This document shows positions 12,655-18,786 of a stretch of 20,554 nucleotides of DNA, one piece after another. The notes under the pieces were generated by a model. It ran no database searches. It saw nothing but the letters and a program-made list of their open reading frames with translations, and was not told the DNA's origin. Each line of letters opens with the position of its first letter. Position 1 is the first letter of the stretch. Position numbers and translations under genes: made by a program. Source of the stretch: a virus; the IMG/VR virus record IMGVR_UViG_3300035670_001456, positions 1 to 20,554 of that record; one strand, 5' to 3'.

Positions 12655-12664
12655 TATAAATATA
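12655..12664 (-). promoter_or_regulatory. Late-type promoter box before the 207-residue gene
   Basis: The minus strand reads TATATTTATA in the 57-base gap between the GH19 gene and the 207-residue gene, 25 bases upstream of the ATG at 12629. No TTTG or TTGACA is seen at the right distance upstream. No terminator precedes it, so readthrough from the spike genes is likely and this box would add transcripts for the wedge genes. Confidence 0.6.
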
Positions 12665-15723: not shown

Positions 15724-15735
15724 TATATAAATATA
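15724..15735 (-). promoter_or_regulatory. Late-type promoter box of the structural operon
   Basis: The minus strand reads TATATTTATATA followed by TTGAA, the same 17 bases as the box before the 209-residue gene. It ends 20 bases before the ATG at 15703. It sits directly downstream of a terminator hairpin, so it is probably the main entry point for transcription of the spike and baseplate genes. Confidence 0.65.
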
Positions 15736-15741
15736 GGGAAT

Positions 15742-15769
15742 AAAAAAACCCAACCTTACGGGGTTGGGT
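15742..15769 (-). terminator. Rho-independent terminator
   Basis: On the minus strand an 8-bp perfect stem (ACCCAACC / GGTTGGGT) closes a 6-base loop and is followed by a run of seven T. This is the most GC-rich short stretch in the area. It separates the secreted-protein gene, and a possible small RNA, from the structural operon. Confidence 0.9.
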
Positions 15770-15811: not shown

Positions 15812-15821
15812 TATAAATATA
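15812..15821 (-). promoter_or_regulatory. Late-type promoter box with no gene before the terminator
   Basis: TATATTTATA on the minus strand begins immediately after the stop codon of the 97-residue gene (TGA at 15823-15825). It is identical to the core of the other late-type boxes, but the next gene start lies beyond a strong terminator, so it can hardly serve that gene. It could drive a short non-coding RNA. A chance AT-rich match is possible. Confidence 0.45.
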
Positions 15822-15822
15822 A

Positions 15823-16116
15823 TCATTTATTAGAACTTACAATTTGGTTTTCTAATTGTTTAATTTTGTTGTTTAACTGAACTATTTGGATTTCTTCCGA
15901 AGTCCATCTTCTATTTCCTTTTGGGTGTATCCAAATTAATTTACCCATATCGTATTTCGCTTTAGCAAAATCCGATTTCCAAATACCATGTTCTTGGTAT
16001 TTACCATCAACAAGAATGAGTGTGCCTTTTTGGTGGCCATCATTAACTTTAATTTTTTCTTGCCCAAATCCATTTACCGAAAGGATTAGCAAAATTGTAG
16101 TGATAAATGTTTTCAT
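15823..16116 (-). CDS. Small secreted protein with flavobacterial-type signal peptide
   Basis: The protein has 97 residues. Residues 1-19 are a signal peptide (MKTFITTILLILSVNGFGQ), with cleavage likely before Q19 or shortly after; the FGQ/FAQ ending followed by a polar residue is typical of Flavobacteriia. The mature part (about 78 residues) contains GTLILVDGKYQEHGIWKSDF and KLIWIHPKGNRRWTSEEIQ, then a short coiled coil (VQLNNKIKQLENQI). No family is recognised. It would act in the periplasm or at the cell surface during infection, or interfere with envelope functions; this is inference. Upstream are four CTTAAC repeats resembling a Pho box and a TATATTTATA box 16 bases before the ATG, with AGAAGGAAT as ribosome binding site. 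A terminator follows. It is therefore an independently controlled accessory gene. Confidence 0.8.
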   Translation of the reverse strand: MKTFITTILLILSVNGFGQEKIKVNDGHQKGTLILVDGKYQEHGIWKSDFAKAKYDMGKLIWIHPKGNRRWTSEEIQIVQLNNKIKQLENQIVSSNK

Positions 16117-16132
16117 AATATTCCTTCTTTAT

Positions 16133-16142
16133 TATAAATATA
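16133..16142 (-). promoter_or_regulatory. Promoter box of the secreted-protein gene
   Basis: The minus strand reads TATATTTATAAT, so both the late-type box TATATTTATA and a perfect TATAAT (16131-16136) are present. The late-type box ends 16 bases before the ATG. The Pho-box-like repeats end about 3 bases before the first box and 9 bases before TATAAT. The latter distance resembles activator-dependent Pho promoters, in which the repeats replace the -35 element. Confidence 0.55.
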
Positions 16143-16144
16143 GG

Positions 16145-16184
16145 AATGTTAAGAAAAAGTTAAGAATGTTAAGTAAATGTTAAG
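16145..16184 (-). promoter_or_regulatory. Four CTTAAC direct repeats, Pho-box-like
   Basis: On the minus strand four CTTAAC copies start at 16184, 16173, 16164 and 16153, so the steps are 11, 9 and 11 bases. The first pair reads CTTAACATTTACTTAACAT and the second CTTAACTTTTTCTTAACAT. Direct repeats of about this sequence at 11-bp pitch are the known form of PhoP sites in Bacillus (TTAACA) and Pho boxes in cyanobacteria (CTTAACCT). They fill the gap between the carbamoyltransferase stop and the promoter of the secreted-protein gene. A PhoB-type response regulator of the host is the inferred binder. Confidence 0.55.
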
Positions 16185-17900
16185 TTAAAATAGTTTTTTC
16201 TTTACTATATAGTTTCCAAGAACAAGAGTATCCATCTCACAATTTAAAAAAGTTTCAATTGCTGATTTGGGGTCTAATACCATTGTTTGGTCTTTTAAGT
16301 TGAATGATGTGTTTAAAACAATAGGATATCCATTATCTTTTTGTAGTTGATTTAATAACTTATAGATACGATTGTGTTGTGATTGTTTTAAGGATTGGAT
16401 TCTTGCAGAACCATCAACGTGAGTAATAGCTGGTAAAAACTTTCTATGTTCTTCTTTTACAGGAACTACTTGATTCATATAAGGAACATCTTCTTTATAA
16501 TCAAAGTATTTTAATTGTTCTTCAATTTTTACAATAGGAGCAAATGGTCTGAACCCTTCTCTTTTTTTAATCACCTTATTTACTTTGGCTTTCATTTGTG
16601 GGTCACATGGATTTGCAAGTATTGAACGATTACCCAATGCACGAGAACCAAATTCCATTTTACCTTCAAACCAACCAATTACCAAACCTTCGGTAATTTG
16701 TTTAGAAATTAATTCAATAATCTCGTGATGTAGTTTGTGTGTATAAAAAACTTTGTCTTTAAAATCATCAAGAGTTTCTTTAATTTGGTCATTTGAATAA
16801 TGTGGACCTAAATATGGATTTTGATTATTTGCTTTTTTAATATTAACATCCGCAGTTGTATAGTAGTGATAAAGAGCACAACCGATTGCAGAACCTGCGT
16901 CTGATGGGGCTGATGGAATCCAAACATTTTTATAATTTGTCTTTTGTAAAATTTTACCATTGGCAGTTCCGTTGTAAGCACACCCACCACCAAGACATAA
17001 GTTATTAGATGGTCTCATCCCATACAAACGATTTACCAATCTAAAAAAGTAATTCTCGTATTCATGTTGTAGAGTTGCAGCCAAATCCTTATGGTCTTGG
17101 GTAAGTTCTTCATCGGGTAATCTGTTTGGTAATCCTAATAACTGTCCAAGTTTTTCGTTAAACATGGTTTTATCATCCCAATCATAGGTAAAATAATCCA
17201 TGTTAATTTCATACCCACCGTTATCTTTTGGAGAAATTAATTGAGAAAATTTAGATAGATATTTTTTATAATCACCATATGGGGCAAGACCCATTACCTT
17301 ATACTCACCTTCATTTGGTTTGAATCCAAGAAAGGCAGTAAAGGCAGAATATAACATTCCTAATGAATGTGGAAAATCTACTGATTGAATTTTGGTAAAG
17401 GTATTATTCTCTACATAATATAAAGAAGTGGTTTCCCATTCACCAACTCCATCTACCGAAACTATACCAGCCTTATCATAGGGAGAAGTGTAGTAAGAAT
17501 ATGCAACGTGAGAAAGGTGATGGTCTCCCCATACCACTCTAACATCTTTATGAGTGTGTTCATAAATTTTGTTTTCAATTTCTTTAAATTCTTTTTTGTT
17601 TCTTGAAATTATAGATTGTCTTTTTAAGAAGTTGGTAATACCACCTCTTTTAGTAGATTTTTCAATTCTATCTAATTTCTTTTTGGGGTCATCGTAAAAA
17701 CAAACTACCTCAATATCTTCGGGTGTAATTTTGTTGTATTCCAATAACCATTTAATAGTGTTTGTAGGAAATGAAGAATCGTGTTTTATTCCTGTAAATC
17801 TTTCTTCCTCAACTGCCCCTAAAACTCGTCCGTCTTTTATAAGTGATGCAGCAGAATCGTGGTATCCACATGCAATCCCTAAAATATAACCTTTAATCAT
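16185..17900 (-). CDS. Carbamoyltransferase, NodU/CmcH/TobZ family
   Basis: The protein has 571 residues, full length for the family. The N-terminal Kae1-like ASKHA domain is complete: GIACGYHDSAASLI (8-21), EEERFTGIKHD (31-41), the metal-binding HxxxH within GDHHLSHVAYSY (125-136), VDGVGEWETT (149-158), LGGGCAYNGTANGKI (303-317) and PSAPSDAGSAIG (329-340). The C-terminal YrdC-like part has GWFEGKMEFGSRALGNRSIL (409-428), REGFRPFAP and VLNTSFN (528-534). Such enzymes use carbamoyl phosphate and ATP to make a carbamoyl-adenylate and transfer the carbamoyl group to a hydroxyl of a sugar, antibiotic or similar small molecule. In a phage, targets could be surface glycans or a modified nucleotide; neither is shown here. 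It has its own promoter box, lies between a terminator and the Pho-like repeats, and has no glycan or nucleotide-modification gene beside it in this window. Confidence 0.92.
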   Translation of the reverse strand: MIKGYILGIACGYHDSAASLIKDGRVLGAVEEERFTGIKHDSSFPTNTIKWLLEYNKITPEDIEVVCFYDDPKKKLDRIEKSTKRGGITNFLKRQSIISRNKKEFKEIENKIYEHTHKDVRVVWGDHHLSHVAYSYYTSPYDKAGIVSVDGVGEWETTSLYYVENNTFTKIQSVDFPHSLGMLYSAFTAFLGFKPNEGEYKVMGLAPYGDYKKYLSKFSQLISPKDNGGYEINMDYFTYDWDDKTMFNEKLGQLLGLPNRLPDEELTQDHKDLAATLQHEYENYFFRLVNRLYGMRPSNNLCLGGGCAYNGTANGKILQKTNYKNVWIPSAPSDAGSAIGCALYHYYTTADVNIKKANNQNPYLGPHYSNDQIKETLDDFKDKVFYTHKLHHEIIELISKQITEGLVIGWFEGKMEFGSRALGNRSILANPCDPQMKAKVNKVIKKREGFRPFAPIVKIEEQLKYFDYKEDVPYMNQVVPVKEEHRKFLPAITHVDGSARIQSLKQSQHNRIYKLLNQLQKDNGYPIVLNTSFNLKDQTMVLDPKSAIETFLNCEMDTLVLGNYIVKKKLF

Positions 17901-17943: not shown

Positions 17944-17955
17944 TATATAAATATC
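17944..17955 (-). promoter_or_regulatory. Late-type promoter box of the carbamoyltransferase gene
   Basis: The minus strand reads GATATTTATATA, one mismatch from the common TATATTTATATA. It lies 43 bases before the ATG, farther than at the other sites. The leader can form an AT-only imperfect stem of about 13 bp (17912-17945) and shows no clear Shine-Dalgarno sequence (ACTTACACCAATTATG). A perfect palindrome CCATAT-N6-ATATGG (17955-17972) abuts the box on its upstream side. Confidence 0.5.
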
Positions 17956-17978: not shown

Positions 17979-18008
17979 AAAATACTCTTATCGTATTGAG
18001 AGTATTTT
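17979..18008 (-). terminator. Rho-independent terminator after the gp55-like gene
   Basis: A perfect 10-bp stem (AAAATACTCT / AGAGTATTTT) with a 10-base loop ends in TTTTTATT on the minus strand. It begins within the stop codon of the sigma-factor gene and separates that operon from the carbamoyltransferase unit. The stem is AT-rich, so efficiency is uncertain. Confidence 0.75.
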
Positions 18009-18786
18009 ATAAGAACTCATCATCAATATAAGTAGTATCAATTTCCAAGTCGTCATCGTCAATTGAGGCAACCCAAAATTGTTCTTTTGGTATTTCTCTA
18101 AATTCACCATGTTCTAAATAATCATTCAACATTCTTTTCTGATGTAATTTCATTGTATTTACAACTTTGGTAATATAATGAGTTTTACAATCGGTCATTT
18201 CTCTGATTAGAAGATATAAATGTTTTTTGTTGAAGTTTTCAATATACTCACTTCTTCGGAATAATTCTAATACCGCATCTGCAATTTGAATATCTCTTTT
18301 TTTAGTGAATACCGAATTTAAGTTTCTATCCCAATATGTGAGCATTATATCTTTGAACTCTTTAAACTCATCACCTTCTTCTACATCATAAAAATCATTT
18401 TCAGGATTCCATGATTCGGGCATTTCAGAAAGTAAAGCATTTTGTTTCCATCTTTTGTAATTACCATTGTTGGCAAGAATAAGATGGTTTTTTGCAATAA
18501 TAGTAAAATAAGAAAAAGCCCTACCTTTACCTTCTTGATACATGTGCATTTTCTCAACCATAGTAGAAACTACTTCGGTTTGAATATCTTTTTTAGAAAC
18601 ATCAAAATAAGAAAATTTAAATGTATTGATTACATTCTCTGCTAATTTCTCAAAAGGATATTTTATTTTTTCCTCATAAATCTTTGACCTCTTTATTGGG
18701 TCTTTTGTTTTGTTGTATTCAACAATTGCTTCTTGAGCAGGGGCACCAAAATATATCTTGGATTTTGGTTTTCTTGGTTTAGACAT
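18007..18786 (-). CDS. 55: Late-transcription sigma factor, gp55-like
   Basis: The protein has 259 residues (T4 gp55 has 185). The conserved part lies at about 45-105: YPFEKLAENVINTFKF, then EVVSTMVEKMHMYQEGKGRA and FSYFTIIAKNHLIL. The GKGRAFSYFT-type motif matches the sigma region 2-like segment of gp55 proteins of marine T4-like phages. gp55 binds the core RNA polymerase of the host and directs it to late promoters that have only a -10-like element, helped in T4 by the sliding clamp and gp33. The C-terminus is acidic with a hydrophobic end (SIDDDDLEID then YIDDEFL), in the place where T4 gp55 has its clamp-binding tail; this equivalence is inferred. A gene for a small membrane protein lies one base upstream, and a terminator overlaps the stop. 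Confidence 0.88.
   Translation of the reverse strand: MSKPRKPKSKIYFGAPAQEAIVEYNKTKDPIKRSKIYEEKIKYPFEKLAENVINTFKFSYFDVSKKDIQTEVVSTMVEKMHMYQEGKGRAFSYFTIIAKNHLILANNGNYKRWKQNALLSEMPESWNPENDFYDVEEGDEFKEFKDIMLTYWDRNLNSVFTKKRDIQIADAVLELFRRSEYIENFNKKHLYLLIREMTDCKTHYITKVVNTMKLHQKRMLNDYLEHGEFREIPKEQFWVASIDDDDLEIDTTYIDDEFL

Follow-up and report, generated by a model that had tools for sequence, protein, structure and literature searches.

The window, which is the whole stretch of DNA that was analysed, is a complete IMG/VR record of 20,554 bp and covers genes for the tail and baseplate of a T4-like phage. Distant relatives were found in Flavobacterium phage immuto, in an uncultured phage of 484 kb and in a phage whose annotated host is Microcystis. 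On the minus strand, a carbamoyltransferase gene of the NodU/CmcH type (16185-17900) is the upstream neighbour of a gene for a 97-residue protein with a signal peptide (sp97, 15823-16116), and past sp97 lies a probable intrinsic terminator (15743-15769, minus strand), which was read from the sequence by eye as CCCAACCCCGTAAGGTTGGG followed by a T run. Between the carbamoyltransferase stop and the sp97 start the minus strand reads CTTAAC-ATTTA-CTTAAC-ATT-CTTAAC-TTTTT-CTTAAC-ATTCC-TATATTTATAATAAAG. The first CTTAAC half-site (16179-16184) is directly 3' of the carbamoyltransferase TAA (16187-16185), the second (16168-16173) is 11 bp from the first, the third (16159-16164) is 9 bp from the second, and the fourth (16148-16153), which is nearest to the promoter, is 11 bp from the third; all four are on the minus strand. 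The initial annotation had described four CTTAAC copies on the gene strand at steps of 11, 9 and 11 bases, and these were re-found at 16184, 16173, 16164 and 16153. It had also placed them directly before the gene of a 97-residue secreted protein, which agrees with an array that lies between the carbamoyltransferase stop and the ORF start at 16116. The distance from the last repeat to a TATAAT (16136-16131), given there as 9 bases, is 11 when counted.

The sp97 product has a signal peptide and is probably exported, and the presumed cleavage site is marked by an invariant Gln (Q19) that follows the Bacteroidetes Q-rule. Its beta hairpins are weakly MORN_2-like and are followed by a helix at the C-terminus. 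Four of 11 sp97 homologues match PF07661 (MORN_2) weakly (best E 0.0003) and the protein of the window itself has no match. A structure model of moderate confidence (pLDDT 74) contains the beta hairpins and the C-terminal helix, and fold searches with this model returned no match. That the gene downstream of the repeats has no known phosphate function is a point against reading them as Pho boxes.

The repeat array and its conservation with sp97

CTTAAC is the sole 6-mer of the window that occurs four times within 40 bp, and a fourfold cluster of a 6-mer of any sequence was found in three of 200 windows simulated with an order-2 Markov model. The exact pair CTTAAC-N5-CTTAAC is present twice in the window, so that the direct repeats of a Pho box (at least one pair at 11-bp pitch) are found here as two pairs. 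A scan for this double repeat, which the initial annotation had proposed, located it in the window solely at the sp97 promoter.

A single-sequence search with sp97 found no relatives in viral contigs or phage records, and relatives were reached by synteny via the baseplate wedge protein and then by profile search. Thirteen syntenic contigs have an sp97 homologue (29-58% identity) after the carbamoyltransferase, and all 13 have TTAAC-type repeats at 11-bp pitch ahead of the gene, the last one standing closely before TA(T/C)TTATA. The repeats are absent from relatives that have the carbamoyltransferase without sp97. The profile search added 27 homologues with upstream sequence. When the upstream stretches were scored with the host-trained matrix described below, the top site was before the gene in every case; 26 of these sites lie at -46 to -51, and that of L410 lies at -165. 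The conservation covers about 31 distinct promoter sequences. When 19 promoters were aligned, the proximal TAACAT (half-site 4) and the T-A-C positions of half-site 3 were invariant, the TAAC of half-site 3, which lies 11 bp upstream of the proximal one, was nearly so, and the DNA further upstream of the proximal pair varied; all 19 contain a TTAAC-like pair at 11-bp pitch. The sp97 gene and its boxes travel together, which rules against the concern raised at the outset that related phages might keep the gene and lose the repeats, since the repeats accompany the gene in all 13 syntenic relatives and all 27 further homologues. Immutovirus and Mel-JY01 have neither a carbamoyltransferase nor sp97 at the corresponding place, and the two genes therefore resemble a cassette that was inserted there.

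Sites before phosphate genes of Flavobacteriales

A pattern scan of all bacteria gave sites that were scattered among the matches listed, and it served only to supply starting genomes. The exact pair CTTAAC-N5-CTTAAC is rare, with 106 sites in 296 Flavobacteriales genomes. In a comparison set of 79 PstS places from 70 of these genomes, four exact pairs, one in each of G036, G224, G143 and G160, lie about 110-205 bp upstream of a PstS match and share its strand, against 0.0023 pairs expected at such positions (Poisson P about 1e-12). Several more exact pairs were found in pst clusters before genes for Na/Pi cotransporters (PF02690), and a sample of Flavobacteriaceae contained one before a phosphate-selective porin gene (PF07396) that adjoins pstS. 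The pair shows no genome-wide enrichment in Flavobacteriaceae, where its 25 sites are several times fewer than those of a reversed-pattern control; because the pair is rare and less frequent than this control, only its position is informative. Upstream regions of pstS that were gathered without the pattern also contain TTAAC pairs at 11-bp pitch in many cases.

Another concern raised at the outset was that PhoB sites of flavobacteria might have another sequence. At pst and phosphate-transport genes the same sequence and the same 11-bp pitch were found, and the sp97 repeats are identical to sites that precede phosphate genes in the host group. We take the TTAAC pair at 11-bp pitch before these genes to be the flavobacterial Pho box, and an earlier report of its sequence was not found in the open-access papers searched, subscription papers being outside this search. 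The sp97 boxes have an A after TTAAC (TTAACA), which is the flavobacterial form, and TTAACC is common in arrays of the cyanobacterial type. Strong Pho boxes were also seen before Flavobacteriales genes for a PiT-like membrane protein with the motif ANDSIQTIGTFIASN (L342, L344, L346, L347, L351 and L352); these proteins are labelled PiT-like by eye only and have no Pfam or NCBIfam match.

A matrix was built from 28 host sites, some of which had been found with the exact CTTAAC pattern, and it therefore favours the CTTAAC shape; the positional enrichment before pstS is independent of it. In the window this matrix scores 26.0 at half-sites 3 and 4 and 25.5 at half-sites 1 and 2, the next site elsewhere scoring 10.3, and the maximum over 40 simulated windows was 15.9. 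The sp97 promoter is the top site in all 13 syntenic relatives (scores 20.7-28.1), mostly 46-48 bp before the ATG. It is also the only site above chance in a 252-kb record (27.0, the next being 15.3) and the sole one above 12 in a 128-kb record. The weakest sp97 promoters are L397 (14.8, a value within the range of chance scores, which extends to 15.9), L404 (17.5), and L385 and L388 (about 18). A second matrix, trained only on the nine non-pstS sites before Na/Pi and PiT-like genes, scored upstream regions of pstS above their antisense strands (P 0.0003) and ranked the sp97 promoter first in the window. A site scoring 19.4 in L083, the one high-scoring relative without the gene, was rejected and looks like chance; the region resembles a large structural gene by eye, and no ORF starts shortly after the site.

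The repeats could have arrived with a Pho-regulated host gene and have become irrelevant in the phage, an origin to which the weak similarity of sp97 to short secreted MORN-type proteins of Flavobacteriales lends some colour. These host genes, however, are not preceded by a Pho box (best score at most 5.0), which makes it improbable that the phage acquired its promoter together with a Pho-regulated host gene, and the boxes are kept across about 31 distinct phage promoters with diverged flanks. A relic of this kind is very unlikely. Conservation with the gene and identity to sites at flavobacterial phosphate genes both support the Pho-box reading given in the initial annotation. We conclude, with a probability of roughly 0.85, that the repeats are Pho boxes, which are predicted to be PhoB sites of a Bacteroidota host, most likely one of the Flavobacteriales.

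The late-type promoter core and the proposed regulator

At the sp97 promoter the octamer TATTTATA (16133-16140, minus strand) begins 7 bp past the last box, and TTATAATA (16137-16130, minus strand), which overlaps it, begins 10 bp past the last box. In intergenic DNA of 17 phage sequences TA[T/C]TTATA was found 77 times in the sense and three times in the antisense orientation, usually with 13-33 bp between it and the start codon of a late gene. It is because of this orientation and this place before late genes that the octamer is read, very probably correctly, as the late-promoter core of the phage group; the features looked for in such a core (an intergenic, sense TA[T/C]TTATA before late genes) were all found. 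The sp97 promoter combines this core with Pho boxes, and the remaining late promoters of the same phages have no boxes, among them that of the carbamoyltransferase gene (core at 17953-17946). Further copies of TATTTATA, each shortly before a gene, are located at 17946-17953, 15726-15733, 12655-12662 and 688-695, and a sixth copy of the core is located at 15812-15819, just past sp97. A conserved protein of the group, encoded at 18007-18786, was tentatively labelled gp55-like by position and by eye. This candidate has no match in Pfam, NCBIfam or PDB, and only one of 13 members of its group touches phrog_234 (late sigma) weakly (E 0.62).

The distance from the last box is 7 bp to the octamer and 10 bp to TTATAnTA, with one additional base in two promoters; among the 19 aligned promoters the spacing from box to TTATA is 10 bp in most and 11 bp in two. 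The sigma-A -7 element TAnnTTTG sits at -12 to -5 (PMC9723704), and the distance to it from the last box is 10 bp at some host Pho promoters; among Pho sites of hosts and other phages it is 10, 11 or 21 bp at some and longer at others. The boxes were found at a near-fixed distance from the -10/-7 element, which is a position compatible with activation, and the geometry of boxes and core is consistent with this mode of action. The core may be read by a phage sigma factor or by host sigma-A.

PhoB could instead bind these boxes as a repressor, so that the late-type promoter is repressed or blocked until phosphate suffices. The proximal box lies only 7 bp before TATTTATA, and a protein bound there could occlude polymerase that carries a phage sigma factor without region 4. 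In some Pho promoters of hosts and other phages, nevertheless, 10, 11 or 21 bp separate the last box from the -7 element, the spacing of 10-11 bp from box to TTATA in the phage promoters is as activation predicts, and the phage Pho boxes known so far are linked to induction (PMC10976474). Repression is therefore unlikely, and both geometry and precedent favour activation. Under activation, two tandem PhoB dimers would occupy the two 11-bp pairs, the conserved pair being the promoter-proximal one. Bound PhoB, held at a near-fixed distance from the late-type core TATATTTATA, would help RNA polymerase to start sp97 transcription under phosphate shortage.

The OmpR/PhoB-type DNA-binding domain (PF00486) was not found in 20 related phage records, including those of 289 and 253 kb, and the regulator is therefore probably host PhoB. 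The near-fixed distance to a phage late-type core and the conservation of the repeats across many phages could also be expected if the repeats were bound by a late-transcription regulator that the phage itself encodes. Such a regulator is very unlikely given that the repeats were found by a matrix from host DNA alone, that other late promoters of the same phages have no repeats, and that PF00486 was not found in the 20 related records.

The host itself is probably a member of the Bacteroidota. This assignment is based on the Gln that follows the signal peptide in 26 of 26 sp97 homologues, in agreement with the Bacteroidetes Q-rule (PMC5837995), and on the half-site TTAACA, which is that of Flavobacteriales. 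A phage of cyanobacteria, in which the repeats would be cyanobacterial Pho boxes, was also considered, as one of the distant relatives has Microcystis as its annotated host, the baseplate protein of Mel-JY01 is 40% identical and the cyanobacterial consensus CTTA-N7-CTTA also fits (PMC3037559). The sp97 boxes have the form TTAACA, however, whereas the cyanobacterial-type arrays in other contigs have TTAACC, Flavobacterium phage immuto is related about as closely, and the invariant Gln again points to Bacteroidetes. A cyanobacterial host is thus highly improbable. With host PhoB of a Bacteroidota cell as the predicted regulator, the virus probably times production of sp97 by the phosphate-hunger signal of its host. 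The purpose of sp97 may be guessed from its small exported product, which would most naturally act in the envelope and be required mainly when the host is starved of phosphate.

Known Pho systems and other arrays

That host PhoB can control phage genes is established in cyanophages, although the same study reports that predicted Pho boxes are no reliable predictor of PhoB binding (PMC10976474). The Pho boxes of cyanophages (before pstS of P-SSM2 and before genes of S-PM2d) resemble the present ones in that phage genes have PhoB sites of the host type, that the phages are T4-like phages of aquatic bacteria, and that some of the S-PM2d genes with Pho boxes are hypothetical. The sp97 system differs in its host phylum, which is probably Bacteroidota, in its units, which are TTAACA rather than of the TTAACC type, in having only one site in each long record scanned, which is fused to a late-type phage core, and in the conservation of its boxes before the gene of one exported protein, across about 31 distinct promoters. 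The host phylum, the fusion to a late-type core, the occurrence of just one site per long record scanned and the kind of gene are what is new relative to the cyanophages.

In F. johnsoniae, work on phoBR reports induced genes, and no mention of a motif or promoter was found in the main text (PMC8115612). The regulator proposed here is the same as in this Flavobacterium Pho regulon, and phosphate-transport genes have the same box in the present analysis.

The PhoP sites of Bacillus subtilis are TTAACA repeats at 11-bp pitch. They are alike in half-site sequence and pitch but belong to another phylum, and no relatedness of the sp97 phage to Bacillus phages was seen in the present analysis. T4-type late promoters have the sequence TATAAATA and are read by gp55. 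The resemblance to these lies in a strongly oriented A/T octamer upstream of late structural genes, and the differences are that the octamer is here TA(T/C)TTATA on the coding strand, that one copy has Pho boxes, and that the phage has only a gp55-like candidate (18007-18786).

Arrays that resemble Pho boxes were also seen in other contigs. A second kind of phage contig (L012, L039, L008, L030, L036; L013, L014, L029; L028) shares a terminase type and has Bacteroidota-type TATGTTTG elements. Each contig has several Pho-box arrays, mostly 21 bp and in some cases 11 bp before a -7 element, and the arrays precede small genes that lie past the terminase gene. Contigs of 43-55% GC (L020, L032, L046, L049, L051 and L052) contain CTTAACC units repeated in tandem at 11-bp pitch over long stretches. 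The CTTAACC unit resembles the cyanobacterial Pho-box consensus, and these arrays may have a regulatory role or be a repeat of another kind.

A more extended proposal, to which we give somewhat less than even odds, is that of a two-key promoter, in which host PhoB would act directly on a late promoter read by a phage sigma factor and would thereby gate one late gene by host nutrition, leaving the rest of the late programme ungated. In this proposal sp97 would be the first Pho-controlled gene in Bacteroidota phages, and in a second, separate phage group with Bacteroidota-type promoters these boxes would serve promoters of the host type that stand before several small genes.

The analysis yields a sequence for the flavobacterial Pho box and would tie an uncharacterised exported phage protein to phosphate starvation. 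The PhoB logic of the cyanophages would now be found in phages that probably infect Bacteroidota, which are major degraders of organic matter in aquatic environments, and the sp97 promoter suggests that phages can build an activator of the host into a promoter of the late type.
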